From the NCBI RefSeq assembly GCF_027270735.1, contig NZ_JAPWIJ010000008.1, forward strand, positions 124,001 through 188,000: 64,000 nt of DNA, in the 5' to 3' direction. This DNA is from Rhodococcus ruber. GTDB taxonomy: Bacteria; Actinomycetota; Actinomycetes; Mycobacteriales; Mycobacteriaceae. The position numbers and the translations under genes were made by a program. The notes under the pieces were generated by a model. The model ran no database searches and was not told where the DNA came from. It saw nothing but the letters and a program-made list of their open reading frames with translations. Position 1 is the first letter of the stretch; every line of letters starts with the position of its first letter. Shown here piece after piece: positions 4,672 through 37,196 of the stretch.

Positions 4672-4722
4672 GGATCAATGTGGGTTTCAGTCGCTCAGAC
4701 TGCAACAAAGTCGCATTGATCC
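4672..4722 (+). repeat. 51-bp palindromic element, copy 1
   Basis: First of four 51-bp copies in the window. It starts GGATCAATGTGG and ends CGCATTGATCC; these arms pair with two G-T (G-U in RNA) positions. A nested CAGTC/GACTG hairpin lies inside, followed by the unpaired GCAAC seen in every copy. Flanking CCC and GGG runs extend the pairing imperfectly. It lies between the tuf terminator and hen1. It differs from copy 4, read on the opposite strand, at one position only. Confidence 0.85.
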
Positions 4723-4799
4723 GGCGGGTAGAGGGGAGTGCACGACCGGAAAATGGGACGCATCGGACGCGGCTGTACCGTAACGTCGCTTCGGTGCTA

Positions 4800-6116
4800 A
4801 TGACCGTGACTGCAAATGCCACAACCGATTTCCCGGACACCTCCGACATCGGGTATCTGTTGCACAAGCACCCCGATCGCGTATTTAGCCGAAACCTGCC
4901 CATGGGTGCCGCGACGGTGTTGTATCCCGAGGTCTCGGCAGAGCGGACAACCCTCGCAGTACTGCTCGACGGGGCCGGCGAGAAGAAGCCGGCCGCGTCC
5001 GGGCTCGCGGTGGCACTGTCTCGACTTTTCAAACAGACTCTCACCGGCGTATGCGCCACCAGACCTGAACTGGTCTCTGCCGCAATCGATCTGACTGTGT
5101 CGATGCCTGCTGCGCCGTCTCGTGGTGCGACCGACCTCGCATCACGGTTGTTCGGTCCCCTGGGATGGACCGTCGAGGCGACGCCCATTCCGTTCGATCC
5201 GACGCAGCCGCAGTGGGGCAACTCCGAGTACATCGGTCTCGTTCTCAGCGGCACGTTCACTCTGTCGGCAGCGCTGCGGCACCTGTACGTACTCCTTCCT
5301 GTGCTCGACGACGCCAAGCACTATTGGGTAGGGGAGGACGAGGCAGACAAACTCGTTCGAGCGGCGGGGGATTGGCTCGGAGATCACCCCGAGTCGTCGT
5401 TGATCGCATCCCGCTACCTGGCGCACCGCCGCGAACTCGTGGCCTCTGCGCTGGACCGCCTGGTGCCCGACACGCGGGAGGACGACATGACTCCGCGTGA
5501 TCCGACGTTGGCCGAGCAGCGGGTACGCGCCGTACTGGCGGCGCTGACCGACGTCGGTGCGAAGTCGGTGGTCGACTTGGGTTGCGGTGAGGGTCGTCTG
5601 CTGCGAGAACTGCTCGTAGACAGTGCTTTCGAGCGCATTGTCGGTGCCGACGTGAGTGATCGCGCACTCGCCAGGGCGCACCGCCGGTTGCGTCTGGACG
5701 ACATGGCGGATCGGCAGCGAACGCGTATCGAACTGGTCCAGTCGTCGGCCACCTACCGTGACGTTCGATTGCAAGGATTCGATGCGATGGTGCTCATGGA
5801 GGTGATCGAGCACGTCGACCTCGATCGGCTCCCGGCGCTGGTGCGCTCGGTCTTGCGCGAGGCGCGTCCAAGGACCGTGCTCGTGACCACACCCAACTCC
5901 GAATACAACGCACTGTATCCAGGGCTCGGACCGGGTGCTTTCCGTCATGTCGACCACCGATTCGAGTTCACCCGCAACGAATTCGAGCAGTGGGCATCAT
6001 CGGTGGCCGACGGCCACGCCTACTCGGTGCGTTTCGACCGCATCGGACCTGTCGACGACCGACTCGGTAGCCCGACCCAGATCGCAGTGTTCACCAGAGA
6101 GGAGCAGTCCCGATGA
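4800..6116 (+). CDS. hen1: 3'-terminal RNA 2'-O-methyltransferase Hen1
   Basis: Bacterial Hen1 methylates the 2'-OH at the 3' end of a cleaved RNA before PnkP religates it, so the repaired site resists being cut again. The 438-residue protein has the family layout: an N-terminal domain (IGYLLHKHPDRVFS near residue 20) that in studied homologs activates the PnkP ligase, then a methyltransferase. The SAM motif VVDLGCGEGRLL lies near residue 257. The metal-binding set E334-x-x-E337-H338 and a later His (VDH, about 386) is present, with TPNSEYN between. The ATG at 4800 gives a family-like N-terminus; a GTG two codons on is the alternative, and no strong Shine-Dalgarno decides. It overlaps pnkP by four bases. 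Confidence 0.92.
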   Translation: MTVTANATTDFPDTSDIGYLLHKHPDRVFSRNLPMGAATVLYPEVSAERTTLAVLLDGAGEKKPAASGLAVALSRLFKQTLTGVCATRPELVSAAIDLTVSMPAAPSRGATDLASRLFGPLGWTVEATPIPFDPTQPQWGNSEYIGLVLSGTFTLSAALRHLYVLLPVLDDAKHYWVGEDEADKLVRAAGDWLGDHPESSLIASRYLAHRRELVASALDRLVPDTREDDMTPRDPTLAEQRVRAVLAALTDVGAKSVVDLGCGEGRLLRELLVDSAFERIVGADVSDRALARAHRRLRLDDMADRQRTRIELVQSSATYRDVRLQGFDAMVLMEVIEHVDLDRLPALVRSVLREARPRTVLVTTPNSEYNALYPGLGPGAFRHVDHRFEFTRNEFEQWASSVADGHAYSVRFDRIGPVDDRLGSPTQIAVFTREEQSR

Positions 6117-8638
6117 CTACCTTCGACATTCCAGATCTGTCCCTCGTCGTACTCGTCGGCATCAGCGGCTCCGGCAAATCGTCCTTCGCCGCGCAACACT
6201 TCGGTCCGTACGAGACGGTGTCCAGCGATGCCTGCCGGGGCATGGTCAGCAACGACCCCAATCTGCAGAGTGCGACCAAGGACGCGTTCGCCCTCCTGGA
6301 ATTTCTGGTCGCGACCAGATTACGGGCCGGACTGCTCACTGTCGTCGATGCCACCAACGTGCAACCGGCCGCCCGCAAGGCGTTGATCGCGCTGGCCCGG
6401 GAACACGACGTGCTGCCGGTTGCCGTCGTGCTCGATGTGCCGGAGACAGTGTGCGCACAGCGCAACGCCGAACGGACCGACCGGATGTTCGGCCGAGATG
6501 TGTTGCGCCGCCAGCAGTCACAGTTGCAACGGTCCATGCGAGGTCTGGCCAAGGAAGGGTTTCGTTCGGTTCATGTGCTCGACGGCGTCGATGCGGTGGC
6601 GTCGGCGACGTTCGTTCGTACGCCTCTGCGTAGTGATCGACGTGAGTTGACCGGGCCGTTCGACGTGATCGGCGATATTCACGGGTGTCGCGCCGAGCTC
6701 GAAAGCCTGCTCGCAGCAGTGGGTTACACGGTGGAGCGTGACGAGCTCGGTCGAGCGGTCGGCGCAACGCCGCCGGCCGGACGAACGGCGGTGTTCCTCG
6801 GTGACTACATCGATCGTGGGCCCGACTCGGTCGGAGTCCTGCGGCTGGTGATGGGGATGGTCGGTGCCGGTGCGGCGCTGGCAGTCCCGGGCAACCACGA
6901 GAACAAGCTCGTCAAGGCGCTGCGAGGTCGCAAGGTGACTGCGTCGCACGGTCTCGCCGAGACACTGGAGCAGCTCGACGCCGAGCCGGCAGAGTTTCGC
7001 CGGGAGGTGCTCGAGTTCTGCGACGGCCTCGTCGCGCACCTCGTGCTCGACGGCGGAAGGCTCGTCGTCGCCCACGCGGGTCTGATCGAGAAGTACCAGA
7101 ACCGGGCGTCGGGCAGAGTCCGAAGCTTCGCTCTGTACGGCGACACCACCGGGGAAACAGATGAGTTCGGTCTGCCGGTTCGGTATCCGTGGGCCAAGGA
7201 CTATCGCGGTTCGGCGACGGTGCTCTACGGGCACACTCCGGTGCCGGAAGTGGAGTGGGAGAACAACACTGCGTGTCTCGATACCGGTTGCGTATTCGGT
7301 GGCAAGTTGACGGCGCTGCGCTACCCGGAGCGCGAGGTCGTCTCGGTGCCGGCCGAGCAGGTCTGGTACGAGCCGTCCCGTCCGGTCGGTGCCTTCGTGC
7401 GAGATGCGGCGTCGCTCGATCTGTCGGACGTGATCGGCCCGACGGGTGTCGAGACGTCGCTGCGTGGTCGCGTGTCGATTCGGCCCGAGAATGCGGCCGG
7501 GGCATTGGAGGTGATGAGTCGGTTTGCGCTCGCTCCGCAGTGGCTGCACTATCTGCCCCCGACGATGGCACCGAGTCGAACCTCGGAGCGCGACGGGTAT
7601 CTCGAGTATCCGACGGAGGCGTTCGACGCGTATCGGGCGCTCGGTGCGTCGGCGGTGATCTGCGAGGAGAAGCACATGGGCTCGCGGGTCGTTGTGGTGG
7701 TGTGCCGTGATGCCGACACCGCGCGGGAGAAGTTCGACGCACCGGCGGGAGTGCTCGGTACCGCGTACACCCGCACCGGTCGACCGGTGTTCGACGAGAC
7801 CCTCACTGGGAACCTGATTTCGGGGGTGGTCGACGCACTCGAAAGAGCGAGTGTGTGGGACGAATTGGATTCGCGCTGGCTGATTCTCGACTGTGAACTG
7901 ATGCCCTGGTCTGCCAAGGCGGAGGGGCTGATCAAGACCGAGTACGCCGCAGTTGCTGCGGAGTCTCGGGCTACTCTCGAGGCCGAAGCGGGTGTGCTTG
8001 CCCAGGCGGCGTCGCGTGGCCTGGACATACAGGAACTGCGGGACCGCAACATAGTTCGTCGGGACAATCTGGTCGAGTTCACCGCTGCATATCGGCGCTA
8101 CATCTGGCCGACCGACGGGTTGACCGGCGTTCGGATTGCGCCGTTCCAGATGTTGGCGTCCAATGTCGGAACCTATGTCGATCGTCCGCACCGGTGGCAC
8201 CTCGATCTCGCCGACCGAGTGGTGACGGCTGCTCCCGAGGTGTTCGCCGCGACCCGTCGAATCGAGGTGGATCTGGCATCGGTCGATTCCGTTGCGGCAG
8301 CAGAGAAGTGGTGGGAGGAGTTGACGGCGCAGGGCGGAGAGGGCATGGTCGTCAAGCCGGCCGAGAACAGTCCGCGCGGAAAGATGCAGCCCGGCATGAA
8401 GGTTCGCGGCCGAGAGTATCTGCGGCTGATCTACGGTGCCGACTACACCGACCCGGATCGCCTGACTGCACTGCGAAACCGGAACGTGGGACACAAGCAG
8501 TCGATGGCTCTGCGCGAATACGCACTCGGCATGGAGGCGTTGGACCGATCGGTGCGCAACGAACCGCTCTTTTCCATCCACCAGGCGGTGTTCGCGGTAC
8601 TGGCACTGGAATCGGAGCCGGTGGACCCGCGGTTGTGA
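6113..8638 (+). CDS. pnkP: Polynucleotide kinase-phosphatase / RNA-repair ligase PnkP
   Basis: PnkP heals and seals cut RNA. The kinase phosphorylates the 5'-OH, the metallophosphatase removes the 2',3'-cyclic phosphate, and the ligase-like domain adenylylates and, with Hen1, joins the ends. All three modules are visible in 841 residues. The kinase P-loop GISGSGKSS is at 16-24. The phosphatase has GDIHGC (about 187), GDYIDRG (about 230) and GNHENK (about 260). The nucleotidyltransferase has K520 in EEKHMGS. Length is close to the well-studied Clostridium thermocellum enzyme. The ATG overlaps the hen1 stop (ATGA), implying translational coupling and a 1:1 complex. No third gene of the cassette is visible. 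Confidence 0.95.
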   Translation: MTTFDIPDLSLVVLVGISGSGKSSFAAQHFGPYETVSSDACRGMVSNDPNLQSATKDAFALLEFLVATRLRAGLLTVVDATNVQPAARKALIALAREHDVLPVAVVLDVPETVCAQRNAERTDRMFGRDVLRRQQSQLQRSMRGLAKEGFRSVHVLDGVDAVASATFVRTPLRSDRRELTGPFDVIGDIHGCRAELESLLAAVGYTVERDELGRAVGATPPAGRTAVFLGDYIDRGPDSVGVLRLVMGMVGAGAALAVPGNHENKLVKALRGRKVTASHGLAETLEQLDAEPAEFRREVLEFCDGLVAHLVLDGGRLVVAHAGLIEKYQNRASGRVRSFALYGDTTGETDEFGLPVRYPWAKDYRGSATVLYGHTPVPEVEWENNTACLDTGCVFGGKLTALRYPEREVVSVPAEQVWYEPSRPVGAFVRDAASLDLSDVIGPTGVETSLRGRVSIRPENAAGALEVMSRFALAPQWLHYLPPTMAPSRTSERDGYLEYPTEAFDAYRALGASAVICEEKHMGSRVVVVVCRDADTAREKFDAPAGVLGTAYTRTGRPVFDETLTGNLISGVVDALERASVWDELDSRWLILDCELMPWSAKAEGLIKTEYAAVAAESRATLEAEAGVLAQAASRGLDIQELRDRNIVRRDNLVEFTAAYRRYIWPTDGLTGVRIAPFQMLASNVGTYVDRPHRWHLDLADRVVTAAPEVFAATRRIEVDLASVDSVAAAEKWWEELTAQGGEGMVVKPAENSPRGKMQPGMKVRGREYLRLIYGADYTDPDRLTALRNRNVGHKQSMALREYALGMEALDRSVRNEPLFSIHQAVFAVLALESEPVDPRL

Positions 8639-8660
8639 GCGCAGGCATTACTGTTCGGCA

Positions 8661-8957
8661 ATGACCATCAGACTCGTTGTATCCGTGGAAACGAAGCCCG
8701 GTCTCGGCGAACGCCAGGTTCAGGCGTTCGCCGAGCTGGCACCTCAGGTTCGAGCGGAGCGGGGTTGCCTCCAGTACGACCTTCATCGAGTCGTCGGCTC
8801 CGAGGAAAAGTTCGTGATACTCGAACACTGGGAGTCGGCGGAGGCCTTGGCGGCCCACGACGATGCGCCGCACATGCTCGACGCGGGTGCCGCGAACACA
8901 CAGTTTCGAACGGGACCGGCTCGAGTTCTGATCATCGAGGGCGCGGCAGTCCGTTAG
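8661..8957 (+). CDS. ABM-domain (putative quinol monooxygenase) family protein
   Basis: This 98-residue protein has the antibiotic-biosynthesis-monooxygenase dimeric ferredoxin-like fold signature: TIRLVVSVETKPG at the N-terminus, GCLQYDLHRVVGSEEKFVILEHWES in the middle, then an H-x-x-A-PH-like helix. Such proteins act as small cofactor-free oxygenases on quinols or anthrones, or are non-enzymatic; the substrate cannot be read from sequence. It starts 22 bases after pnkP on the same strand and could be read through from the RNA-repair cassette, but a functional link is unproven. A palindromic element follows its stop. Confidence 0.75.
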   Translation: MTIRLVVSVETKPGLGERQVQAFAELAPQVRAERGCLQYDLHRVVGSEEKFVILEHWESAEALAAHDDAPHMLDAGAANTQFRTGPARVLIIEGAAVR

Positions 8958-8982
8958 ACCTCGAGTGTTGCGCCCCCAGCTG

Positions 8983-9033
8983 GGATCAATGTGGATTTCA
9001 GTCGGTCAGAGTGCAACAAAGGCGCATTGATCC
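8983..9033 (+). repeat. 51-bp palindromic element, copy 2
   Basis: Same 51-bp length and framework as copy 1 (GGATCAATGTGG ... TGCAACAAAG ... CGCATTGATCC), with five substitutions: at positions 13, 23, 29 and 40, plus a shift in the small hairpin. The flanks add CGCCCCC on the left and GGGGGAGCG on the right, which pair with one bulge. It separates two convergent genes (ABM protein and a minus-strand membrane protein), so a bidirectional transcription-end role is possible. Confidence 0.85.
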
Positions 9034-9056
9034 GGACCGGGGGAGCGTAGCGAGAG

Positions 9057-9446
9057 TTACTCTTTCGGCGACGAGAATGGACTGATTCCGGCACTGATCG
9101 GTGCCGCGATTGCAGCAGCTACCCCGATCGACGCCCAGAAGGTCTGTGAGTCCAGCATCAGACCGCCTGCGAGACCGCAGACCGCAACCACGACGCCGCA
9201 TCCGATCAACAGTGCAGACCCGACAGCGGAGTGCAACAGGCCGCGTCGGTCAGGGGCGTGACGCCCCTCGAGCCAGATCATCGTTCCGGTCGCCGCGAAT
9301 ACCATCGGGACGTAGAAGTAGACAGAACTGTCACCGAGTTTCGAGGCGAAGGCGGCAACCACCAGCACCGCACCGAATGCGACAGGAACGGCGAGAGGCA
9401 TTCCACCGGACCATCGCTCGAACCTACTGCGCGTCGATGCCGTCAT
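9057..9446 (-). CDS. Hypothetical four-helix membrane protein
   Basis: This 129-residue protein has four predicted membrane segments (around residues 16-37, 44-60, 70-95 and 104-122) separated by short charged loops such as EGRHAPDRRG. No enzymatic motif was recognised. The ATG at 9446 (MTASTRSRFERW) gives a short basic cytoplasmic tail before helix 1. It is transcribed in the same direction as the Asp23/DUF6286 pair upstream, 24 bases away, and may be the last gene of that envelope unit. Confidence 0.6.
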   Translation of the reverse strand: MTASTRSRFERWSGGMPLAVPVAFGAVLVVAAFASKLGDSSVYFYVPMVFAATGTMIWLEGRHAPDRRGLLHSAVGSALLIGCGVVVAVCGLAGGLMLDSQTFWASIGVAAAIAAPISAGISPFSSPKE

Positions 9447-9470
9447 GAGGCCACCGTAGTGCCGAAGGCA

Positions 9471-10022
9471 CTATCCCCGCTTGTCGACGTGCAACTGAAT
9501 GCGGGTGGCGACGTACGCACCAGCGAGAGATTCGGCGACGAATGCGGCTCGTGATTCGGCCAGCGAGGTGAAGGCAACTACATCGAAGTCTGCTGCAGCG
9601 TAGACCGATACAGCGATGGTGGGTACACCGCGATCATCGATGGCTGTTCCTCTGGCTCGTCGAACACCGTGAAATTCTGCCAACTCCGCGGCCGCTCCCG
9701 ATGCGATGGCACTCAGGTCCACGTGCGCCGAGAAGTGTGGCTCCTCGATGACACTCGCCGTTCCGGTCCGACGCGGAGAGAAGTTGCCGATCAGCAACAC
9801 CAGCGCCACCACGACGGCCACTGCGACGACGATTGCCAGCGTCGGCACCCACCAGCCCTGCTGCGGCAACTCCGCAATACGCGCACGGTCGAAGCGAGAC
9901 AACGTCTCTCGCGCCCACGGAACGTCGTAGTGCCAGGCGAGGGCGAAGCCGCCACCGGCCACGAGCACGAGCCCGGCGACGACGGCGAGAAGCCGATCCA
10001 CCCCGGCGACGAACGTCTTCAT
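9471..10022 (-). CDS. DUF6286 / AmaP-like membrane protein
   Basis: The 183-residue product starts MKTFVAGVDRLLAVVAG. It has two membrane segments (about 8-30 and 60-84) followed by a soluble C-terminal domain like DUF6286 (alkaline-shock membrane-anchor relatives). The ATG overlaps the stop of the preceding Asp23-type gene (ATGA), so the two are co-translated. In Gram-positive bacteria Asp23-family proteins are held at the membrane by such anchors and affect envelope stress responses. That role here is by family analogy only. Confidence 0.65.
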   Translation of the reverse strand: MKTFVAGVDRLLAVVAGLVLVAGGGFALAWHYDVPWARETLSRFDRARIAELPQQGWWVPTLAIVVAVAVVVALVLLIGNFSPRRTGTASVIEEPHFSAHVDLSAIASGAAAELAEFHGVRRARGTAIDDRGVPTIAVSVYAAADFDVVAFTSLAESRAAFVAESLAGAYVATRIQLHVDKRG

Positions 10023-10960
10023 CACGAGACCCTCGACGGCTGCGACACCGAGTGCTTCACCGTCGATCGGCGCCCATCCGCGGCAACGGACAGCACCGGA
10101 GCCAGCGCTTCTCGCACGGCAGCGTCGACACTGTCGACGTCGAAACCAGGATCGCGCCTCACCCGCACTTCGATCCTCTTCCGCGTGACGACGGTATGGG
10201 CGTCCGTGACTCCGCGAGTGGACTGCGCTGCAGCACTGCACAATCGAGCGATATCGGTGGGTTTTGCCCATACGGTCGGAGCCCCGCCGCCCAGGCCGGA
10301 ATGAGTTCTCGTGCGTGGTTTGAGTCCGACGAACACGAGCAACAGTCCGACGACGGCTGTACCGATCGCGCCGGCGATCATCCAACTCTGCCAGTGCAAT
10401 CGGGCGGCCCGGCCGATCGCGTCGGCGACCCACGGACTGCCGCCGATGCTTCCGTGCGCGATGAAGAACTCGCGGCCGGCAACGAAGGCCACGCCCAGGA
10501 GGATGAATCCGAACAGCAGAGCCACCGGCATCGCAGCCGGACCAGCGGTGGGTGGACGGGGCGAAACAGTCTGCGAAGGATCGGGATTCGCCACAGGTGC
10601 GGGACGGCTGTCGAGGGTGGTGTCGGATACCAGCACGTTCACCCGATGCACGTGCAGACCCGTCATCGTCGCCAGTGCTTCTTCGACGGCTGTGTGCACT
10701 GCCTGGGTGACCTCGGTGATCTGCGACGGCCACCGGACACCGATGTAGAGGTTGACGGCAATCGTGTCCGCCCCGAGGGTGACGTCGGCGCGGGGGAGCT
10801 CTCGCCCGGTCAGTCGCGAGAGGCCACCGGTGGTGCGGGTGACCCGAGGGTCTTTCAATGCCGCCGCGATGGCGGTGCGGGAGATGGCCCGGTCCTTTAT
10901 TTCCACACTGCCGCGCGAACCGGGGTCGCTGACCTCGTCGGATGCAGCCTGCGTCGTCAC
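10022..10960 (-). CDS. Asp23/Gls24-family envelope stress protein with DUF6286-like C-terminus
   Basis: This 312-residue protein has an N-terminal Asp23-like domain (GSVEIKDRAISRTAIAAALK, then DTIAVNLYIGVRWP) of about 110 residues and a Pro-rich linker. Two membrane segments follow (about 145-165 and 192-212), then a soluble domain ending in IEVRVRRDPGFDVDSVDAAV. The GTG start at 10960 follows an AAAGGA Shine-Dalgarno and replaces a longer ATG frame that would extend into the ilvA promoter. It is divergent from ilvA. A soluble Asp23 domain joined to its own membrane anchor is notable beside a second anchor gene. Confidence 0.65.
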   Translation of the reverse strand: MTTQAASDEVSDPGSRGSVEIKDRAISRTAIAAALKDPRVTRTTGGLSRLTGRELPRADVTLGADTIAVNLYIGVRWPSQITEVTQAVHTAVEEALATMTGLHVHRVNVLVSDTTLDSRPAPVANPDPSQTVSPRPPTAGPAAMPVALLFGFILLGVAFVAGREFFIAHGSIGGSPWVADAIGRAARLHWQSWMIAGAIGTAVVGLLLVFVGLKPRTRTHSGLGGGAPTVWAKPTDIARLCSAAAQSTRGVTDAHTVVTRKRIEVRVRRDPGFDVDSVDAAVREALAPVLSVAADGRRSTVKHSVSQPSRVS

Positions 10961-11076
10961 CGAAAATCCTTTGCGCCGGTCGCGGCTCGCTCTGGTGCGG
11001 CTCGCGCTCCACAACTGTAGTGACGACCGACGTCGGATGCCGTCATGGGAGTAATTGTTCCTGGCATACTGCGACT

Positions 11077-12306
11077 GTGTCGGAAATTGTGCGGGTGACC
11101 GCGTCGGATATTGCCTCGGCCGAGGAGCTGCTGGAACCGGTCATGCGCCGGACTCCGGTGGTGGCCTCGCGGATTCTGTCGGATCTGACCGGCCACGAGG
11201 TGCGCCTCAAGTGCGAGAACTTGCAGCGAACCGGATCGTTCAAGCCACGCGGGGCGTACAACCGCATAGCCAAGCTCGACGCTGAACAGCGCGCCCACGG
11301 GGTGGTCGCGGCCAGCGCCGGCAACCACGCTCAGGGTGTCGCGTGGGCCGCGTCGCAGGTGGGAATCGAGTCCACGGTGTTCATGCCGGTAGGCGTGTCG
11401 CTGCCGAAGCTGGTGGCCACCAAGGCATACGGGGCGACGGTGCATCTGGTGGGCAACACCGTGGACGAGGCGCTGAAGTCGGCGCGGGAATTCGCCGAAC
11501 GTACCGGCGCGACCCTCATTCATCCGTTCGATCATCTCGACATCGTCGCCGGGCAGGCAACGCTCGGTACCGAACTGCTGCAGCAGATGCCGGACGTCGG
11601 CACCATCGTGATCCCCACCGGCGGCGGGGGACTGCTGGCCGGTGTCGCCGCGGCGGTCAAGCTGACCAAGCCCGACATCAGGATCGTCGGGGTGCAGGCA
11701 GAAGGCGCTGCTGCCTGGCCCGCGTCGCTGAAGGCGGGACACCCGATCGCGCTGAAATCGATGTCGACGATGGCCGACGGCATCGCGATCGGCCTGCCCG
11801 GATCGGTGCCGTTCGATCATGTGCAGGGCTTGGTCGACGACGTCGTCACCGTCAGCGAGGACGCTCTGTCGCGGGCGCTGGTGCTGTGCATCGAGCGCGC
11901 CAAACTCATCGTCGAACCAGCGGGCGCAGCCGCAGTGGCGGCGCTGATGACGCACTCGGCCGACGAGCTCGGTTTGACCGGCTCGGTGTGTGCCATCCTC
12001 TCCGGCGGAAACATCGATCCGCTGCTGCTCACCCACGTCATCACCCACGGTCTCCGGGCGGGTGGACGTTATCTCGCTGTGCGCGTGACCATTTCGGACC
12101 GACCGGGCGGGCTCACCGGAGTGCTCGGGGTGGTGCGCGACGCCGGCGCAAGTGTGGTCGACGTCGTCCACTCCCGCACGGGTGGCCGGCTCGGCCTCGA
12201 GGAAGTCGACGTGATGTTGACCGTCGAGACACGCGGACCGGATCACCGAGGCTCGGTGCTCGACGCCCTGGGCGCAGCGGGATATGCGGTCAGTGTCGAG
12301 AACTGA
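11077..12306 (+). CDS. ilvA: Threonine ammonia-lyase (threonine dehydratase)
   Basis: This PLP enzyme converts threonine to 2-oxobutanoate, the first committed step towards isoleucine. K56 in SFKPRGAYN is the Schiff-base lysine. The glycine-rich phosphate loop GGGGLLAG lies near residue 182 and SGGN near residue 308. Residues from about 325 form one ACT domain (DRPGGLTGVLGVVRDAGASV), the type of regulatory tail seen in shorter, single-ACT forms. The GTG at 11077 was chosen because the family start follows directly (SEIVRVTASDI) and the upstream frame overlaps the divergent gene. The length is 409 residues. The next gene begins within its last 23 bases. Confidence 0.93.
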   Translation: MSEIVRVTASDIASAEELLEPVMRRTPVVASRILSDLTGHEVRLKCENLQRTGSFKPRGAYNRIAKLDAEQRAHGVVAASAGNHAQGVAWAASQVGIESTVFMPVGVSLPKLVATKAYGATVHLVGNTVDEALKSAREFAERTGATLIHPFDHLDIVAGQATLGTELLQQMPDVGTIVIPTGGGGLLAGVAAAVKLTKPDIRIVGVQAEGAAAWPASLKAGHPIALKSMSTMADGIAIGLPGSVPFDHVQGLVDDVVTVSEDALSRALVLCIERAKLIVEPAGAAAVAALMTHSADELGLTGSVCAILSGGNIDPLLLTHVITHGLRAGGRYLAVRVTISDRPGGLTGVLGVVRDAGASVVDVVHSRTGGRLGLEEVDVMLTVETRGPDHRGSVLDALGAAGYAVSVEN

Positions 12307-13618
12307 GGGCAGATCAGGCTCGTTCATCTGCGCTCTCTTCACGGCATCGCTGGTTCTCGTCGTGTCTGCATGCTCGGCCGACGTAGAAGAGCCACCTGCT
12401 CGTGACTTGCGCATCGCATCAGGCGGATTGGCGAGTCGGCCGAGTTCGGTGTGGACAGTCGACACCGCGAACGTCGGCGACTCAGAGCATCGATCGGCGT
12501 TCTATCTGCCGTCGGTGCCAGGTGACGATGCCCCGATTCTGGTCGGCGCTGCCACTGGCGGTTACGGGGTGGGCGACGTCGGTGTCGTTGTCGCTGCGCT
12601 CGACCCCAGCTCGGCAACCCAGCTGTGGAGAGCAGACCTCGGCGTCGTCCGGCAGTGCGCAGAGACGATCGACGACGTCGTTCTTGCTTGTTATGGAGAC
12701 GACCGGGTCGTATACCTCGACGTGACGAACGGTTCCATTCTGGGCGACCTCGATCCGGACCCGGATTTTCCGGTGTATCACGTGCGCGTTGCTGCAGGAG
12801 TCGCGTATGTGTCCACCCGCAGTGCGGACATGTTCTCGGCGAGATTGTGGAGCGGTACGTTCACCGATCCGGGCCGCTACTGGAGGCGCGACGCGGCTAC
12901 CCCCGTGTTGGGTGTGCCCGTGTCACCTGCGGTGTTACCCGACATCGGCGTTGCGACGCTGTACGCGCAAGGGACGTATTCGATACTCGACATCGATTCG
13001 GGCGCAGATCGATTCACGTTCAGCGGAGAGAGTCTCATGGCTTTGCGACACGACCTGTTCCTACAGTCGATCCGCAATGCCGACGGATCACGCACCGAGA
13101 GACTGCTGGACGGCGTAGGTTCCGTTCGCACCACCATCGAAGTCCCCACGTACGGCCACAGCTTTGATTACCCGGTCAGTAAGCGCGACAACGAGATTCC
13201 GCTGTTCCTCGGAGACGGTGCGTACGATTCCGAGACTGCCCGCGAGCTGTGGCGAAACCCGCACATGCTCGAATACGAGGTGAGTGGCGCCATCACGGCT
13301 GTTCTTGCGGTGGTCGGAAACACCGTCATCGTCGGCTCGTCGACTGATCGGACGTTGTCCGGAATAGATCTGGAGACCGGCGTGACGCGATGGGTGACCC
13401 CATGGCAGGACGCATATTGGGCGAAGGCAGGTGCGACGGACGGAGAGCACTACGTGTTCGGCGACTACACCGGTATGCACGGAATCCGTGCGTCGGACGG
13501 TGTGGTGCTGTGGTCGGTGCCATGGCCGGACGGAACCGATCCACGTGTGGTGTCGGTGGCCGAGACCGCCGGGGTGCTGTCGATCTCCGGCCCCGACGGT
13601 GTGACCTTGTGGCACTGA
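12284..13618 (+). CDS. Lipoprotein with PQQ-like beta-propeller
   Basis: The 444-residue product has a basic N-terminus, a hydrophobic stretch and the lipobox VSAC with Cys30, so it should be a lipid-anchored exported protein. Repeated blades carry the PQQ-propeller signature (LDPSSATQLWRADLG, IDLETGVTRWVTPW, IRASDGVVLWSVPWP). No catalytic residues were recognised, and such propellers usually act as scaffolds. The ATG at 12284 overlaps ilvA; a GTG at 12293 is equally possible. It is followed by the Emb arabinosyltransferase 74 bases downstream, so a role in the envelope is plausible. Confidence 0.75.
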   Translation: MRSVSRTEGRSGSFICALFTASLVLVVSACSADVEEPPARDLRIASGGLASRPSSVWTVDTANVGDSEHRSAFYLPSVPGDDAPILVGAATGGYGVGDVGVVVAALDPSSATQLWRADLGVVRQCAETIDDVVLACYGDDRVVYLDVTNGSILGDLDPDPDFPVYHVRVAAGVAYVSTRSADMFSARLWSGTFTDPGRYWRRDAATPVLGVPVSPAVLPDIGVATLYAQGTYSILDIDSGADRFTFSGESLMALRHDLFLQSIRNADGSRTERLLDGVGSVRTTIEVPTYGHSFDYPVSKRDNEIPLFLGDGAYDSETARELWRNPHMLEYEVSGAITAVLAVVGNTVIVGSSTDRTLSGIDLETGVTRWVTPWQDAYWAKAGATDGEHYVFGDYTGMHGIRASDGVVLWSVPWPDGTDPRVVSVAETAGVLSISGPDGVTLWH

Positions 13619-13692
13619 CGGACCGGTCCACACAGGTGGCACTGGTACCTTGATCAGCGACCTGGACCAGGACATCAGTGGGAGATATTTGC

Positions 13693-26572: not shown

Positions 26573-26583
26573 CGTGCACAGGA

Positions 26584-26623: not shown

Positions 26624-26700
26624 GACGCACTACGTACTTATCGCTGTATTGCTACGTAATCTGTGGCGCGATCGGCGCGAGGCTCGGAAAATTTCCGATC

Positions 26701-30094: not shown

Positions 30095-30108
30095 TGCTGG
30101 ATTATGGT

Positions 30109-31032
30109 CTACAACTTCCGCAGGCGCAGCCGGTTGATCGCGTGGTCGTTGTCTTTGCGCAACACCATGGTCGCGCGCGGTCGCGTCGGCAGGATGTTCT
30201 CCACCAGATTCGGCAGGTTGATCGAATGCCACAGATCCTCGGCGGCGATCTGAGCGTGGTCGTCGGACAGACCGGCGTAATGGTGGAAATGCGAGGACGG
30301 ATCGGTGAACGACGTCTTGCGCAACGCGAGAAAACGCTTGACGTACCAGCTCTCGATGTCCTCGATTCGAGCGTCGACGTAGATGGAGAAGTCGAACAGA
30401 TCCGAGACCATCAACCGCGGCCCGGTCTGTAATACGTTGAGTCCCTCCACGATCAGAATGTCGGGCTGCCGGACCATGTGGTACTGGCCCTTGACGATGT
30501 CGTACGAGACGTGTGAATAGACCGGCGCGCCCACCTCTTCGGTCCCGGACTTGACTTCGGTGACGAACCTGAGCAGCTTGCGCCGGTCGTAGCTCTCGGG
30601 AAAACCCTTGCGGTGCAGGATTCCTCGACGCATGAGCTCGGCCGTCGGATACAGAAATCCGTCGGTGGTGACCAGGTCGACCCGCGGATGATGGTCCCAT
30701 CGGGCCAGGAGTGCCTGCAGCACACGGGCTGTCGTCGACTTGCCGACGGCGACGCTGCCCGCGACACCGATGACGAAGGGGACCTGACGATCGGGATGCT
30801 TCTCGCCGAGGAACGTTGCAGTCGCGGCGAAAAGCCGCTGCCGGGCTGCGACCTGGAGGTGGATCAAACGCGCCAGGGGCAAGTAGACCTCGGCCACCTC
30901 GTCGAGGTCGATCTGTTCACCGAGACCGCGCAGCCCGATCAGTTCTTCCTCGGTGAGCACCAAGGGCGTGGATTGGCGCAGCGTGCGCCACTGCACACGG
31001 TCGAACTCGACGTACGGGCTGGACTCGCTCAC
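30109..31032 (-). CDS. coaA: Pantothenate kinase type I
   Basis: CoaA phosphorylates pantothenate, the first step of coenzyme A synthesis. The 307-residue protein has the P-loop [21 protein letters not shown] and the type I signature regions [30 protein letters not shown] and [13 protein letters not shown]. The GTG at 31032 follows GGTTGGAG and gives the family start [11 protein letters not shown], whereas the longer frame runs across a repeat and the divergent gene's start. It matches Rv1092c. A half copy of the cloverleaf repeat lies in its upstream region. Confidence 0.94.
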
Positions 31033-31053
31033 GCACGGCTCCAACCACAGTCG

Positions 31054-31075
31054 TTCCGCAGGCTCCACTCTTGCC
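31054..31075 (+). repeat. Left half of the cloverleaf repeat (copy C)
   Basis: A 22-base segment beginning TTCCGCAGGCTCCACTC is identical to 35542-35563 after phoH. It is 22 to 43 bases upstream of the coaA start codon, so it lies in the coaA leader or promoter. The pairing left arm is degenerate here (CACGGCTCCAACC). The rest of the 165-base divergent gap to the DUF885 gene shows no clear promoter. Confidence 0.6.
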
Positions 31076-31197
31076 ACATCGGAGATGCTGAGGGTCCGGC
31101 TGAGCTCCCGTGGAGCGCGAGTCGCATGGTTTCCGATTGTGCTCGGTGCCGGTGGATCGCGCACGGGCGGGGTCGTTCGCCGTACTAGGGTTCGGGT

Positions 31198-32394
31198 ATG
31201 GATGCTGCTTCCCTGGTACGCGAATACCTGCTGCTCGGCCTCAGTTTCGACCGCCTCGAAGACGGCTTCGTCGACGCATACACGGGCGATCCGGAGTTGC
31301 GCAGAATCACCGAGAACGCCCCCGCGCCGGAGCCTCGCGAGCTCGTCCGTCGAGCGCAGACGCTGCGCGCAGAGCTCGGCAACGTCGATCTGACACCCGA
31401 GCGCACGACGTTCCTCGACGTCCACCTGCGTGCCCTCGAGTGTTCGGCGCGAAAGTTCGCCGGCGAGGACATCGGGTTCGTCGACGAGGTGGACGCCTAC
31501 TTCGACGTCCGCATCGCCCCCGGCGATCAGGACCAGTACCTACAGGCTCACCGCAAGATGGACGAGGTTCTCGCCGGTCCCGGCTCGCTGAGCGAACGGT
31601 TGATCGCGCATCGCCGTGCCGACATCATTCCGGCCGACCGACTGCAGGACTGCGTCGAGGCGTTCTCGTCCGCTCTGCGAGACCGTGTGCGCGCCGAATA
31701 CACGCTGCCCGACACCGAGAAAGTCACCTACGAGGTCGTCGGAGACAAGCCCTGGTCCGGCTTCAACTACTACCTCGGCAACTTCCAGTCCACCGTCGCG
31801 ATCAACTCAGACATCGAGCAGCAGATGGCCAATCTGCCGCACCTGATCGCGCACGAGTCGTACCCCGGCCACCACACCGAGCACTGCCGCAAGGAGACCG
31901 GGCTCGTCGGCGCAGGGCAGCTCGAGCAGACGCTGTTCGTGGTCAACACTCCGCAGTGTCTGATGGCCGAGGGGCTGGCCGACCATGCTCTCGGCGCGAT
32001 CGTCGGTGAAGGATGGGGCATGTGGGCGCAGGAGATCTACGCCGACCTCGGACTCCGCTTCGACGGCGAGAAGGCCGAGCGCCTGTCATCCGCGTCGAGT
32101 CAGCTGTTGGGAGTTCGCCAGGACGCCGCGCTATTGCTGCACGATCAGCACAGGAGCGAGGACGATGTGGCCGCCTACCTGGAGCGGTGGTCGTTGGCAT
32201 CGCCTCAGCGCGCCCGGCACAGCCTGCGCTTTCTCTCCTCCCCGCTGTGGCGGGCGTACATCAGTACCTACGTCGAGGGCTACAAGCTGTTGGCCGGTTG
32301 GCTGGACCAGGGCACGACCGTCAGCGAGCGTGCACAACTGTTCGGCAGGCTCCTCGACGAGCCACTGACACCGGGCGCACTACGCGTCTCGTAA
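31198..32394 (+). CDS. DUF885 domain protein (putative zinc peptidase)
   Basis: This 398-residue cytoplasmic protein carries the DUF885 signature [15 protein letters not shown] near residue 217, an HExxPGHH variant of the zincin HExxH motif. A downstream EGLADHALG / [11 protein letters not shown] pair could supply the third ligand. No signal peptide is visible. DUF885 proteins resemble M32-like metallopeptidases but their substrates are mostly unknown. The ATG at 31198 begins with [20 protein letters not shown], typical of the family. It is divergent from coaA and followed after 58 bases by glyA. Confidence 0.82.
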
Positions 32395-32452
32395 ACTGGC
32401 CCAGTCCCGTACTGTGCTGCCCCCTTTCTGCTGTCCTTTGGAGACTCCTGTT

Positions 32453-33736
32453 ATGACTGACGTCAACAACCTGTCACTGGCCGAACTCGATCCCGAGGTC
32501 GCCGAAGCGATGGCCGGTGAGCTGGGACGTCAGCGCGACACCCTGGAAATGATCGCGTCGGAGAACTTCGTCCCTCGTGCGGTGCTTCAGGCCCAGGGCA
32601 GCGTCCTGACCAACAAGTACGCCGAGGGCTACCCGGGCCGCCGCTACTACGGCGGTTGCGAGCACGTCGACATCGTCGAGGATCTCGCCCGCAATCGCGC
32701 CAAGGAACTCTTCGGTGCCGAGTTCGCCAACGTGCAGCCGCACGCCGGCGCGCAGGCCAACGCCGCGGTGCTGATGGCGCTGATCAACCCGGGCGACAAG
32801 ATCATGGGCCTGGACCTGGCTCACGGCGGGCACCTCACGCACGGCATGAAGCTCAACTTCTCGGGCAAGCTCTACGAGGTCGAGTCCTACGGCGTCAGCA
32901 AAGAAGATCACCGCATCGACATGGACGAGGTGCGCAAGCAGGCCATCGCCGCGAAGCCTCAGGTGCTGATCGCAGGCTGGTCCGCCTACCCGCGCCATCA
33001 GGATTTTGCGGCCTTCCGGTCCATCGCCGACGAGGTCGGCGCACTGCTCTGGGTCGACATGGCGCACTTCGCCGGACTCGTCGCAGCAGGGGTACACCCC
33101 TCGCCCGTGCCGTACGCCGACGTCGTCTCCTCGACGGTGCACAAGACCCTCGGCGGACCGCGCTCCGGCATTATCCTGGCCAAGAAGGAATGGGCCAAGA
33201 AGCTCAACTCCGCAGTGTTCCCCGGACAGCAGGGCGGCCCGCTGATGCACGCGATCGCCGCCAAGGCCGTCGCCTTCAAAATCGCGGCCACGCCGGAGTT
33301 CAAGGAGCGTCAGGAGCGCACTCTGCTCGGTGCCTCGCTGCTCGCCGAGCGCCTCAGCGGAGCCGACGTCGCCGACAAGGGTGTCTCGGTCCTCACCGGC
33401 GGCACCGACGTCCACCTGGTACTCGTCGACCTGCGCAATTCCGAGCTCGACGGCCAGCAGGCCGAAGACCTCCTGCACGAGGTCGGCATCACCGTCAACC
33501 GCAACGCCGTGCCCTTCGACCCGCGCCCGCCGATGGTCACCTCCGGCCTGCGCATCGGCACCGGCGCTCTGGCCACCCGTGGCTTCGGCGAGGCCGAGTT
33601 CACCGAGGTCGCCGACATTATCGGTACCGCCCTCGCCACCGGTCAGGCCACCGACGCTCTGAAAGATCGCGTCGTGAAACTCGCGAAGAGCAAGCCTCTG
33701 TACGAGGGCCTCGAAGACTGGGGATTGCTGGGCTGA
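32453..33736 (+). CDS. glyA: Serine hydroxymethyltransferase
   Basis: GlyA interconverts serine and glycine and supplies 5,10-methylene-tetrahydrofolate. The 427-residue PLP enzyme has K231 in the Schiff-base motif [11 protein letters not shown] (where many homologs read HKTLRGPRGG). It also has the N-terminal [36 protein letters not shown] region (shown by its first and last few residues) and [16 protein letters not shown] 32453 follows GGAGAC and gives the standard [16 protein letters not shown]; an upstream in-frame start is unsupported. It matches Rv1093. Confidence 0.96.
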
Positions 33737-33783
33737 CCCTGGCTCTCGCCCGCCCACCCCACCCCGCCCGCCCACTCCGGTCC

Positions 33784-33806
33784 GCGTTAATGGACCATTG
33801 CAACGC
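33784..33806 (+). terminator. Possible terminator hairpin after glyA
   Basis: GCGTTAATGG and CCATT-GC-AACGC pair as a 10-bp stem with a two-base bulge, 47 bases after the glyA stop. There is no U-tract, so termination is a weak inference. It begins the 450-base non-coding stretch 33737-34186, which also holds palindromic copy 3 and the phoH leader. Confidence 0.35.
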
Positions 33807-33847
33807 TCAGACGTGTGTGCACCGCTCCTTTCACACCCACCCCGGTC

Positions 33848-33898
33848 GGATCAATGTGGCTTTCAGTCAATCTGAGTGCAACAAAGCCACATTGATTC
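33848..33898 (+). repeat. 51-bp palindromic element, copy 3
   Basis: The most divergent copy by sequence but the best paired. GATCAATGTGGCTTT and AAAGCCACATTGATT match along the arms, because positions 13, 40 and 42 have become C-G, G-C and T-A pairs. The nested hairpin has shifted to TCAG/CTGA. The invariant TGCAACAAAG is kept. Flanks CACCCACCCCGG and CCTGGGAGGG pair at most positions. It lies between glyA and phoH, both on the plus strand. Confidence 0.85.
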
Positions 33899-33991
33899 AT
33901 CCTGGGAGGGCGGCTTCGGTACGGATCGGCGGCCGACCTGGGGCGACGTCGACGTAACGCGTTGTTCACCGACACGCCAGACACTTAGCGA

Positions 33992-34186
33992 GCCGAACCT
34001 GGGTTTCGGCGGTACCGTCGGCATTAACAGGCAGCGGGGAAGCTACCTGTGCGGGAGGTTCTGATACGTGACTGAGCTAGTGAGCGCGAGAGGGCCGGTA
34101 CCCGGTCCTCGTGTCACCTGACACATCGGACCCGACCGGCCGAGCGACAGAGTTTGCGCGGTACCGCGCAGACGTAGGAGCCCCAC
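33992..34186 (+). promoter_or_regulatory. Highly structured phoH2 leader with GGTACC palindromes
   Basis: Five hairpins follow one another: GCCGAA/TTCGGC (33992-34010); ACAGGcAGC/GCTaCCTGT with a GGGGAA loop (34027-34050); GAGGGCCGG/CCGGTCCTC (34090-34110); GTGTC/GACAC (34111-34124); and the perfect 16-base palindrome TGCGCGGTACCGCGCA (34155-34170), which ends five bases before the phoH TAGGAG Shine-Dalgarno. CGGTACC cores recur at 34010, 34096 and 34159. It was compared from memory with the ydaO c-di-AMP riboswitch and does not carry its conserved boxes. It could be an RNA regulator or a set of protein operators. Confidence 0.5.
34068..34121 (+). CDS. Possible 17-residue leader peptide upstream of phoH2
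   Basis: A GTG-started 17-codon frame (VTELVSARGPVPGPRVT) has a good Shine-Dalgarno, GGGAGG at 34053-34058, nine bases upstream. Its last third runs through the 34090-34110 hairpin and it stops 65 bases before the phoH start. Mycobacterial phoH2 is preceded by a small antitoxin gene (phoAT), but this peptide is much shorter and shows no similarity that I can support. It may instead be a chance frame. Confidence 0.3.
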   Translation: MTELVSARGPVPGPRVT

Positions 34187-35512
34187 GTGACCACTTCACG
34201 CTCCGTTTCCGCCCCTCTTCGGACATTCGTGCTCGATACCTCGGTCCTGCTGTCGGATCCCTGGGCAGTCATCCGGTTCGCCGAGCACAATGTGGTACTT
34301 CCGTTGATCGTGATCAGCGAGTTGGAGGGCAAACGCCACCATCACGAACTGGGATGGTTCGCGCGGGAATCCTTGCGCATGCTCGACGACCTTCGAGTCG
34401 AATTCGGCCGACTCGACCAGCCGGTTCCCATCGGAACATCCGGTGGCACACTACAAGTCGAGCTCAATCACACCGATCCTTCGGTACTTCCCGTCGGGTT
34501 TCGTACCGACTCCAACGACTCCAGAATCCTTGCGTGCGCCCTGAATCTGGCAGCCGAGGGCAAGGACGTGGTGTTGGTCAGCAAAGACATCCCGCTGCGC
34601 GTCAAGGCCGGAGCCGTCGGACTCCCCGCCGACGAGTACCACGCCCACGACGTCGTGCCGTCCGGCTGGACCGGCATGACCGAGCTCGACGTGCCGTCCG
34701 ACGCGGTCGACACACTGTTCAACGACGGCGTCATCGACCTGGCGGAGGCGCGAGACCTGCCGTGTCACACGGGAGTTCGACTGCTTGCCGGACGGCAGAG
34801 TGCGCTGGGCCGCGTCACTCCCGACAAGCAGATTCAGCTCGTGCGCGGTGAGCGTGAGGCATTCGGCCTGCACGGCCGTTCGGCAGAACAGCGAGTCGCA
34901 CTCGATCTTCTGCTCGACGAGAGCATCGGCATCGTCTCGCTCGGTGGAAAGGCAGGCACCGGTAAGTCCGCTCTGGCGCTGACCGCCGGACTGGAGGCCG
35001 TCCTCGAACGTCGCTCGCATCGGAAAGTCGTTGTGTTCCGGCCTCTTTACGCCGTCGGTGGCCAGGAGCTCGGCTATCTCCCCGGCAGCGAGAGCGAGAA
35101 GATGGGGCCGTGGGGCCAGGCGGTCTTCGACACGCTCGAAGGCCTGGCGAGCCCGGAGGTCATGGAGGAGGTCATCGCCCGCGGAATGCTGGAAGTGTTG
35201 CCACTGACGCACATTCGCGGCCGATCGCTGCACGATTCCTTCGTGATCGTCGACGAGGCGCAGTCCCTCGAACGCAACGTTCTGCTGACGGTACTGTCCC
35301 GGCTCGGTTCGGGCTCACGCGTCGTACTGACCCACGACGTCGCGCAGCGAGACAACCTGCGCGTCGGGCGACACGACGGCGTCGCCGCCGTGATCGAGAA
35401 GCTCAAGGGACACCCGCTTTTCGCGCACATCACGCTCACCCGCAGTGAGCGTTCACCGATCGCCGCACTGGTGACGGAAATGTTGGAAGAGTTCGGGCCT
35501 TCAGGAGCCTGA
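34187..35512 (+). CDS. phoH2: PhoH2: PIN-domain ribonuclease fused to PhoH ATPase
   Basis: PhoH2 proteins are RNA helicase-ribonucleases. Residues 10-150 form a PIN nuclease ([15 protein letters not shown] with the first catalytic Asp, then ELEGKRHH and [12 protein letters not shown]). The C-terminal half is a PhoH ATPase with P-loop [11 protein letters not shown] near residue 250 and Walker [14 protein letters not shown] near residue 350. The length, 441 residues, is normal. GTG 34187 follows TAGGAG by six bases. It matches Rv1095, the toxin of the PhoAT-PhoH2 pair, but no overlapping antitoxin gene is present here; a structured leader takes its place. Confidence 0.93.
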
Positions 35513-35518
35513 CCCTAC

Positions 35519-35591
35519 GTGAGCGTGGAGCCTGCGGGTCATTCCGCAGGCTCCACTCTTGCCTCGTAGCCCACTACGAAGTTCCGCTCAC
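35519..35591. repeat. Cloverleaf-like palindromic repeat (complete copy B)
   Basis: An outer 7-bp stem GTGAGCG (35519-35525) / CGCTCAC (35585-35591) encloses two arms. These are the perfect 12-bp hairpin TGGAGCCTGCGG/CCGCAGGCTCCA (35526-35537, 35544-35555) and TCGTAG/CTACGA (35564-35569, 35574-35579). It separates the convergent stops of phoH2 and the epoxide-hydrolase-like gene and may terminate both. Its left part is repeated at 31054 and its right part at 26584. Confidence 0.7.
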
Positions 35592-35596
35592 CTGGG

Positions 35597-36004
35597 TCAC
35601 CGGCCCAACGCAGCCCGTAGTGTTCCTCGTGCAACACCTTTCAGGAAATCGACAGTGTCGAAGTAGTCTCGCCACACGGCCACTTTGTCGTCGCGCAGCT
35701 CGAAGGTTCCGCACACCCAGAACTCGATTCGGAGCCGCCGCCAGATCAGGACGTCGGTGCGCTCGGTGAGCACGACATCTCCGTGCGCCGCGATGTTGTG
35801 GATGGTGACGTCGAAGCCGAACGTCGGCTTGGCCAGCAACGCCATGAACCTGCCGACGTTCGAGGTGCCGCGCACCTTGGGGAGCCCGACGTTGTGCCAC
35901 ACGACGCGGTCGTCGAGAAGGGACAGTGCGCGATCGGTGTCGCGAAGCCTCAATGCGTCGAACAGATCTTCCACGATCTTGGTTGCCTGCTGTGTGTCGG
36001 TCAC
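35597..36004 (-). CDS. Limonene-1,2-epoxide hydrolase / NTF2-like family protein
   Basis: This 135-residue protein with a cone-like NTF2 fold keeps the limonene-epoxide-hydrolase residues: Asn38 in VWHN, R82-x-D84 in ERTDVL and D113 in VWRDYFD. These match the Arg-Asp-Asp triad and water-binding Asn of the Rhodococcus enzyme. That supports epoxide hydrolysis, though the substrate may not be limonene. The GTG at 36004 begins VTDTQQATKIVEDLFDAL; the longer frame upstream is low-complexity arginine-rich. It is divergent from the desaturase-like gene, with 249 bases between that show no recognised motif. Confidence 0.75.
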   Translation of the reverse strand: MTDTQQATKIVEDLFDALRLRDTDRALSLLDDRVVWHNVGLPKVRGTSNVGRFMALLAKPTFGFDVTIHNIAAHGDVVLTERTDVLIWRRLRIEFWVCGTFELRDDKVAVWRDYFDTVDFLKGVARGTLRAALGR

Positions 36005-36253
36005 GTGGTGAATCGCCCCAATCCGTCGCCGTCGGAGAACTCCAGTGTGACCGTGTTCCCCTCGTATGCCGCCTGAAGAACGGTTCCGTCCGGTGCGTTC
36101 TCCCGCTCTGCTCGAACGAGAAGGTATCACCGTTCCCTCACGTCGATGGCTGGATGCTCCGAGACTGGACCTGCGACGACCTGGCGTTAGGAGAAATCAC
36201 AGAGGTCAGGGGCATGACGTCGGGCGCTGGAGTGCAGGCGCTACGGTTACCAC

Positions 36254-37111
36254 ATGTCTACGAACCTGTCCGACGGTGATCTGCTGGTCCGTTTGGAGCC
36301 CGCGGTCGAAGAGAATCTACGACGCCACATCGAGGTGGCGAGCGAGTGGCACCCCCATGACCTGGCACCGTTCGACGAGGGCAAGAATTTCGCCTTCCTC
36401 GGCGGCGAGGACTGGACACCCGACCAGTCGCACCTCAGCGACGTCGAAATCCTGGCCGCGACGGTCGCAGTCCTGGTGGCCGACAACCTGCCCGCCTACC
36501 ACCGCGAACTGGCCCATGCACTCACCGGCCTCGGTGCCTGGTGGAAGTGGACCGGCCGGTGGACGTCGGAGGAGAACCGGCAGTCGATCGTGCTCCGCAA
36601 CTTCCTGGTACTCACCCGCGCCGTCGATCCGGTCGCACTCGAGCGCGTCCGGATGGAGCACATGACACTCGGCTACGACGCGCCGAGCCATCATCTGCTC
36701 GATATCTTGGCTCACTTCGCCATCGAGGAAGCTGCCGCCGCGCTGCGTCACCGCAACACGGTTGCCCTCAGCAAGGATCCGGTACTTGCCACCATTCTCG
36801 GCAAGATCGCCGACGACGACGCACTGCAGTCGGCATTCTTCGCCAGCATCCTCGACGAGGCATTCGCTGTGGTGCCGGACCAGGCCGCACGCGCAATCGC
36901 AGACCGCGTGAACGGGTTCTCGATCCCCGTCGTCGACCTGCCCGAGCGCGGTAACAGCACCGTCGCACTCGCCGAAGCCGGCATCTACGACGCCGATCAG
37001 GAACGCGAGAAGGTGTTCAAGCCCCTGCTCGCCGGCTGGAAGATCTTCGATCGCACCGATCTGGGTGAGGACGGGCTGAAGGCACGCGAGGAACTCACAC
37101 ACCTGGCTTGA
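36254..37111 (+). CDS. Acyl-ACP desaturase-like protein lacking diiron ligands (DesA2-like)
   Basis: The 285-residue helical protein aligns with acyl-ACP desaturases of the mycobacterial DesA1/DesA2 type (ENLPAYHRELAHAL, APSHHLLDILAHF, GKIADDDALQSAFF). Active enzymes bind two irons with two ExxH motifs. Here the first reads E107-N-R-Q110 and the second D189-A-L-Q192, so both histidines are glutamine and one Glu is Asp. Loss of both His ligands predicts no desaturase activity; a structural or regulatory role is possible. It occupies the region of the Rv1094 desA2 neighbourhood. Palindromic copy 4 lies after its stop. Confidence 0.78.
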   Translation: MSTNLSDGDLLVRLEPAVEENLRRHIEVASEWHPHDLAPFDEGKNFAFLGGEDWTPDQSHLSDVEILAATVAVLVADNLPAYHRELAHALTGLGAWWKWTGRWTSEENRQSIVLRNFLVLTRAVDPVALERVRMEHMTLGYDAPSHHLLDILAHFAIEEAAAALRHRNTVALSKDPVLATILGKIADDDALQSAFFASILDEAFAVVPDQAARAIADRVNGFSIPVVDLPERGNSTVALAEAGIYDADQEREKVFKPLLAGWKIFDRTDLGEDGLKAREELTHLA

Positions 37112-37145
37112 GGTTCTCCGCTTCGAACGAACCCGCCCCCGGTGG

Positions 37146-37196
37146 GGATCAATGCGACTTTGTTGCAGTCTGAGTGACTGAAACCCACATTGATCC
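37146..37196 (-). repeat. 51-bp palindromic element, copy 4 (opposite orientation)
   Basis: Read on the minus strand this copy differs from copy 1 at one base, in the loop of the small hairpin. Its flanks give the longest arm extension seen: CCCGCCCCCGGTG on the left pairs base for base with CACCGGGGGCGGG on the right. It lies between two convergent genes, the desaturase-like gene and fumC, where it could stop transcription from both sides. Confidence 0.88.

Follow-up and report, generated by a model that had tools for sequence, protein, structure and literature searches.

The 64,000-nt stretch of the Rhodococcus ruber genome analysed here, referred to below as the window, carries four copies of a 51-bp imperfect palindrome that belongs to a dispersed repeat family, F1, and at orthologous sites of related genomes, those of soil and plant-associated Rhodococcus relatives, its place can be taken by a second 51-bp family, F2. 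The units are dispersed, nearly constant in length and biased towards gene ends; they differ between relatives in presence and in family at the same sites, and fragments of F2 are found abutting F1. The explanation that we favour, with confidence about evenly balanced against doubt, is that F1 and F2 are REPIN-like, non-autonomous hairpin repeats at gene 3′ ends, copied in trans and replaced in place by their siblings.

An earlier note on this DNA had described four copies of exactly 51 bp, and all four were recovered (Table 1); the window pattern gave exactly four matches, against a mean of 0.00 in 100 dinucleotide shuffles. Its remark that copies 1 and 4 differ by a single base was confirmed, and no copy lay within a convincing gene; an open reading frame includes copy 1 only when read from the GTG at 4602, far upstream. 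The same note had placed every copy just downstream of a gene 3′ end. This was true of copies 2, 3 and 4, which follow the reading frame taken as the gene at distances of 25, 111 and 34 bp from its stop, but not of copy 1, which is 129 bp from the stop, with a separate perfect 14-bp hairpin (4566-4597) in between. Folded as single-stranded DNA, each copy beat all 200 of its shuffles. The 51 bp are only a core, since C-rich left and G-rich right arms lengthen the hairpin outward. F1 is an imperfect inverted repeat whose two halves are unlike (TTTCAGTC on the left, GCAACAAAG on the right). The F2-like stretch beside copy 3 holds the F2 motif with one mismatch and falls below the threshold of the unit scan, which reports F1 alone there; relatives carry complete F2 units at its place.

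Table 1. Repeat units and an associated stretch in the window (positions counted from its first letter)
Feature	Positions	Strand	Remarks
F1 copy 1, core	4672..4722	+	51 bp; outer arms at about 4661-4671 and 4723-4736, by eye
F1 copy 2	8983..9033	+	C-rich arm left, G-rich arm right
Decayed F2-like stretch beside copy 3	33784..33823	+	left arm and loop kept; by eye
F1 copy 3	33848..33898	+	hairpin reaches 33836-33910
F1 copy 4	37146..37196	-	flanked by two convergent genes; arms reach about 37132 and about 37210, by eye

To find further copies we built a covariance model, R1, from 22 F1 units of the own genome (G000; 5.86 Mb in 61 contigs). It detected more than the four of the window: 26 units at E ≤ 2e-5 and one weak unit (E 0.14), at 23 sites. 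With about 27 units at 23 sites, the hundreds of copies per genome that had been extrapolated from the window are wrong, and the window is a local cluster; four of the roughly 27 units of the genome lie between 4 and 37 kb of this one 64-kb window. The earlier reading as a dispersed intergenic palindrome thus stands without its copy number, and it had not foreseen sibling families at the same sites. In another F1-bearing genome, contig G016:C1 (5.7 Mb) has one F1 site only between about 1.8 and 4.3 Mb, perhaps reflecting an origin-proximal bias. When the left half of F1 was searched for by itself in the own genome with 0-1 mismatch, 21 of 21 matches lay within full units; at three mismatches there were 15 further matches. 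The F1 stem showed no covariation, with 88.9% of cells paired against 90.1% in shuffled alignments of the 22 units, which counts against our explanation, and alignment pair 8-50 was broken in 10 of the 22. Because its stem pairing does not covary, a structural RNA was ruled out as a reading of F1 alone.

F1 units also occur as doublets; counted across all loci, every one of the 13 distinct cases (seven direct, six inverted) has a period of exactly 74 bp. Ten of these 13 read TSAATG with S=C at the outer ends and with S=G at the inner ends, which lets the two outer ends pair with each other and likewise the two inner ones. The full pattern was present in only 11 of 47 F2 doublets; this weakness likewise counts against our explanation. 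The ends of the hairpins, GGATC/GATCC in F1 and GCGTS/SACGC in F2, are paired in most folded units.

F2 was first met in relatives as a different palindrome at the site of copy 4, and then at those of copies 1 and 3. Compared by eye, it resembles F1 in length, in its loop (near CTCAGAC), in its SAATG ends and in its doubling, the F2 doublets keeping an exact 64-bp period in 33 of 47 cases; a length variant of 53-54 nt occurs at L107 and L286. The F2 model, R2, barely detects F1, with one match (L079, 14.3 bits, E 0.75), a point against kinship of the two families. The likeness by eye of length, loop and ends suggests that the two families descend from a common ancestor. Covariation in the F2 stem was no more than in shuffles, which also counts against our explanation. 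In the score matrices used for F1 and F2 the threshold was 18, and the best score in shuffled sequence was -4.5. R2 matched 30 of 61 relatives and R1 matched 23, all within the genus, which was the only one of its family among the 61; R1 was strong in 14 genomes, and in the other nine its matches were weak, the best of each being another hairpin. Several F2 units in G012 (contigs C31, C33, C4 and C5) and G013 (C20 and C11) sit close to contig ends, a few hundred bases away at most, and look as if they adjoin assembly-breaking repeats.

Across 14 genomes, the numbers of F1 and F2 matches were inversely related (Spearman -0.84, uncorrected for kinship, and from match counts that include both-strand duplicates, more so for F2, the better palindrome). 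The balance differs even between sister genomes, as paired by a tree of the flanks of nine sites, one gene and the fum region: F1/F2 counts were 42/16 in G000 and 18/63 in G024, and 7/66 in G013 and 41/38 in G035.

We then compared the F1 sites of the own genome with their orthologues. At least one relative could be compared at 22 of the 23 sites, and occupied and unoccupied orthologues were both found. F2 without F1 stood in at least one relative at 11 of the 22, L062 being a twelfth if G016 serves as a bridge. F1 was present in every compared genome at nine, a result that counts against our explanation, with just one or two genomes comparable at five of these nine (L062, L063, L069, L073 and L077). 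At two sites, copy 2 and L049, a relative was empty and F2 was found in none. Empty sites are under-counted in this comparison, because most loci of relatives had been fetched for holding a unit. The copy 1 site is free of that bias, because its loci were fetched by the neighbouring protein, and there F1 was found in three, F2 in nine and neither in one of 13 genomes of the fascians clade. The neighbouring gene of copy 1 was present in 20 genomes; of the seven outside the fascians clade, G030 carries a unit like F2 nearby, and in the other six no unit appears within the available stretch.

The individual sites differ in what replaces F1. At copy 2, F1 is present in G007, G008, G016 and G024, and G018 has an empty orthologous site with a gap of 17 bp against 98 bp. 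G018 is the only clean empty site there, seven of the eight unit-free relatives apparently lacking the neighbouring small gene as well. This single clean empty site (L190 versus L198) showed no target-site duplication, in line with what the earlier note had said of the window. The empty site at L049 keeps GGATC, which could be a scar or a target. Orthologues of copy 3 carry F2-F2, F2-F2-F1, F2-F1 or F1, the window itself keeping F1 with a decayed F2-like stretch, and the copy 4 site holds F2 or other 51-nt hairpins in relatives. Double-for-double swaps of F1 and F2 occurred at L057 and L065, and at L072 the F2 of G021 and G012 adjoins a degraded F1.

Junctions between the families give a direction to some of these replacements. 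A broken F2 end of 9-19 nt adjoins an F1 arm in 6 of 91 single-unit F1 contexts, where about 1.3 such motifs would be expected in all flanks together. All six are in G009, G011 and G016; at four of them a whole F2 is present in another relative, and the other two were comparable with F1-bearing relatives only. Judged from these abutting ends, F1 probably overwrote F2. In the reverse case, among 33 single F2 contexts, F1 ends were found at L273 and L304 only.

The placement of the units relative to genes was examined with a crude gene caller against 92 background gaps, which include the window's own four and comprise 26 convergent, 32 codirectional and 34 divergent gaps. In the own genome, 13 F1 sites were convergent, 8 codirectional and 2 divergent. 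The corresponding F1 counts were 11, 6 and 1, with 2 unclassified, in G009; 9, 4 and 1, with 1 unclassified and 1 called inside a gene, in G016; and 5, 7 and 2 in G011. The F2 sites of G013, G021, G024 and G012 together comprised 30 convergent, 18 codirectional, 0 divergent and 6 unclassified. Divergent gaps were depleted at Fisher p values of 0.011 (G000, 2/23 versus 34/92), 0.011 (G009) and 0.008 (F2 of G021); these sets are not independent, because sites are common to several genomes. The gene-end bias was weaker elsewhere, with divergent calls at 5 of the 19 best F1 loci of relatives and at 2 of 14 in G011, and this counts against our explanation.

Further 51-bp hairpins were found in other members of the genus. 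Head-to-tail palindromes like GTGACCGAATGNNNCATTCGGTCAC at L095, L096 and L099 (G025, G032 and G017) are possibly another form of the same class. Searched among 301 genomes, R2 gave weaker matches in five genomes of three other genera, whose units again measured 51 nt (52 in the alignment of one) and in many cases had a TCAGA-like loop. In an alignment of 40 sequences, whose members were mostly chosen by models that reward pairing, both sides change in 17 of the 20 stem pairs, 91.1% of cells are paired (67.4% in shuffles) and covariation is 0.570 (0.153 shuffled, at most 0.099 when slid). A model built from this alignment, R3, reached 90 of 401 genomes of the family, spread over 12 of its 31 genera, with E 1e-5 as threshold and no more than 14 candidates scored per genome; 30 of the 90 belong to the own genus, and three genera have a single match each. 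Among the stretches fetched from the listed R3 matches, 18 of 18 keep 18-20 of the 20 pairs and have 0-3 extra pairs outside. Covariance models favour ungapped 51-nt matches and paired arms, which biases the alignment, the family-wide census and the results on arm dyads and fetched stretches. A model-free check on 80 loci not chosen by repeat found seven dyad pairs exactly 30 bp apart, against 0.27 expected; one is in R. zopfii and six are from strains near R. fascians, three of the seven coming from one locus. A motif-free census of hairpins had no more than a slight excess at 51 nt (16 windows, against 14 at 49 nt) and returned lengths from 36 to 75 nt, and constant length therefore applies to the motif-bearing units only. 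Homology of the 51-nt hairpins across genera is therefore plausible, if short of proven.

We propose that the unit is a 51-nt element with a 20-bp stem, an 11-nt loop and a 20-bp stem, on which C/G-rich outer arms would be optional. Units would settle between genes, mostly at 3′ ends, and would be tolerated there because such places are mostly outside promoters. Some factor acting in trans may copy the unit as a hairpin, and a new unit would tend to insert into, or next to, a hairpin of the class already present; with such landing, a site would often keep a hairpin while its family changes, from F2 to F1 or the reverse. A unit may also weakly shape transcript 3′ ends in both directions. Mobility, the common descent of F1 and F2, copying in trans, hairpin-directed landing and any effect on transcripts are the parts that we infer, and ectopic recombination could also produce the swaps. 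No autonomous copy was seen, which counts against this scheme. One gene between F1 units (L040 1534-2670; G000:C11, about 131-132.1 kb) encodes a product with a weak, sub-threshold AbiEi-like N-terminus, and a 58% identical orthologue adjoins F2 in G013 and G021. We dismissed it as the mover: it is an ordinary gene with an orthologue beside F2, and another orthologue is present in G015, where R1, R2 and R3 find no unit.

Recombination is also the core of a different account, unlikely in our estimate and still deserving serious weight, in which the hairpins are bidirectional 3′-end structures of the host (terminators or mRNA stabilisers) exchanged between sites and species through recombination, whether homologous or ectopic, and gene conversion, and not through anything like transposition. 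The gene-end bias, often between convergent genes, fits such a role, and other long hairpins are present in loci of other genera; moreover, G000 and G011 share a near-identical intergenic stretch at copy 1 (by eye) next to a neighbouring protein that is just 88% identical. However, no U-tailed terminator is predicted at the four window copies, separate hairpins stand in the same gap at copy 1, L056, L058 and L065 (the last three by eye), and among codirectional genes F1 seems to be oriented at random (4 of 8 in either direction). F1 also comes with arms of its own, usually at the loss of one side of F2. That the repeats are relics, either ends of dead insertion sequences or phage attachment sites, we consider very improbable. 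The two different halves of F1 would suit such an origin, but no left half with 0-1 mismatch was found apart from a full unit, the geometry is conserved over families, and the F1 doublet was unmatched in phage and plasmid collections.

Alternatively, the units could be paired protein-binding sites, two 13-bp dyads near GAANGGNCCNTTC with centres 30 bp apart, the families being dialects that follow a drifting recogniser. This seems decidedly unlikely to us. The exact 30-bp spacing in the model-free check speaks for it, as do unit periods of 64 and 74 bp that differ by about one helical turn, and other genera that use their own wording in the same 51-nt layout. Against it, six of the seven dyad pairs come from strains near R. 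fascians, the arms of F1 are weak as dyads, those of some families make poor dyads yet stay mutually complementary, and we know of no recogniser for 51-nt hairpins. Returning to in-place replacement, a bolder version, which we put forward as a doubtful conjecture, would make the 51-nt two-dyad hairpins, met in many genera of the family, a set of dialects in which each lineage has its own wording, read by a putative trans recogniser; a genome could then convert its conserved gene-end sites from one dialect to another by hairpin-directed overwriting and without a RAYT-type transposase.

Searches of known collections agree with the earlier note in leaving the repeat unnamed. Rfam gave a single match in the window, the ASdes sRNA at 36572-36639 on the minus strand (53.6 bits), which is antisense within the open reading frame 36254-37111 adjoining copy 4 and not at a copy; copy 1 itself had no match up to E 1, and five loci with other units had sub-threshold matches only (four miRNA families and one BSnc120). 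The literature search, which included the accessible portions of PMC3733652, PMC3116915 and PMC5217627, found no description of this repeat. The F1 doublet matched nothing in phage and plasmid collections, nor did the F2-like stretch in the phage collection; four viral contigs held half the pattern and no unit, and a phage or plasmid origin was rejected.

These results describe a dispersed hairpin class, in genomes mostly without RAYT, whose families substitute for one another at the same sites between sister species, which makes the route of spread testable. The table of orthologous sites (F1, F2, both or empty) supplies natural pairs of states before and after a change, ready for use. Should the class reach as far as the covariance model indicates, many relatives of Rhodococcus would have an overlooked feature at their gene ends.

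RAYT transposases are the usual explanation for REP-like repeats. The Y1_Tnp/RAYT domain (PF01797) was absent from 36 of 37 genus genomes, including the own genome, while an E. coli control was positive, and membership in a REP/RAYT system was rejected on this negative search, which also counts against our own explanation. The sole Y1_Tnp gene among the 37 genomes (L209) is in G018, which is poor in F1 and rich in F2. With REPINs, REPs and RAYTs as described in PMC3116915 and PMC3733652, the likeness lies in short extragenic palindromes, inverted doublets forming one hairpin, several families and arrays. F1 is itself a dispersed extragenic palindrome, and the 51-nt units have the build of an inverted doublet, with two arms of about 20 bp and an 11-nt loop. 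REPs carry an unpaired GTAG or CGTC tag at one end (PMC3733652), which F1 and F2 lack; they usually number more than 100 copies (PMC2817692), well above the roughly 27 units of F1. The main text of PMC3733652 has zero mentions of Rhodococcus or Actinobacteria. In contrast to REPINs, the 51-nt units thus occur without Y1_Tnp/RAYT in nearly all genus genomes, in few copies, and with families that swap in place.

MITEs, pneumococcal BOX and enterobacterial RU repeats are small, dispersed, modular, intergenic and gene-free. F1 and F2 share these traits and may differ in two others, as no target duplication stands at the single clean empty site and the left half of F1, searched for in the own genome, led to no parent IS. 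Intrinsic terminators resemble the units in being strong hairpins where genes end, in many cases between convergent ones, but the four window copies have no U tract, separate hairpins lie nearby at several sites, and the units form dispersed, near-identical families. Some insertion sequences target palindromes, as IS1397 does in inserting into REP. The preference for existing hairpins as landing places would be the same here, the incoming piece being instead a gene-free hairpin of 70-80 bp.
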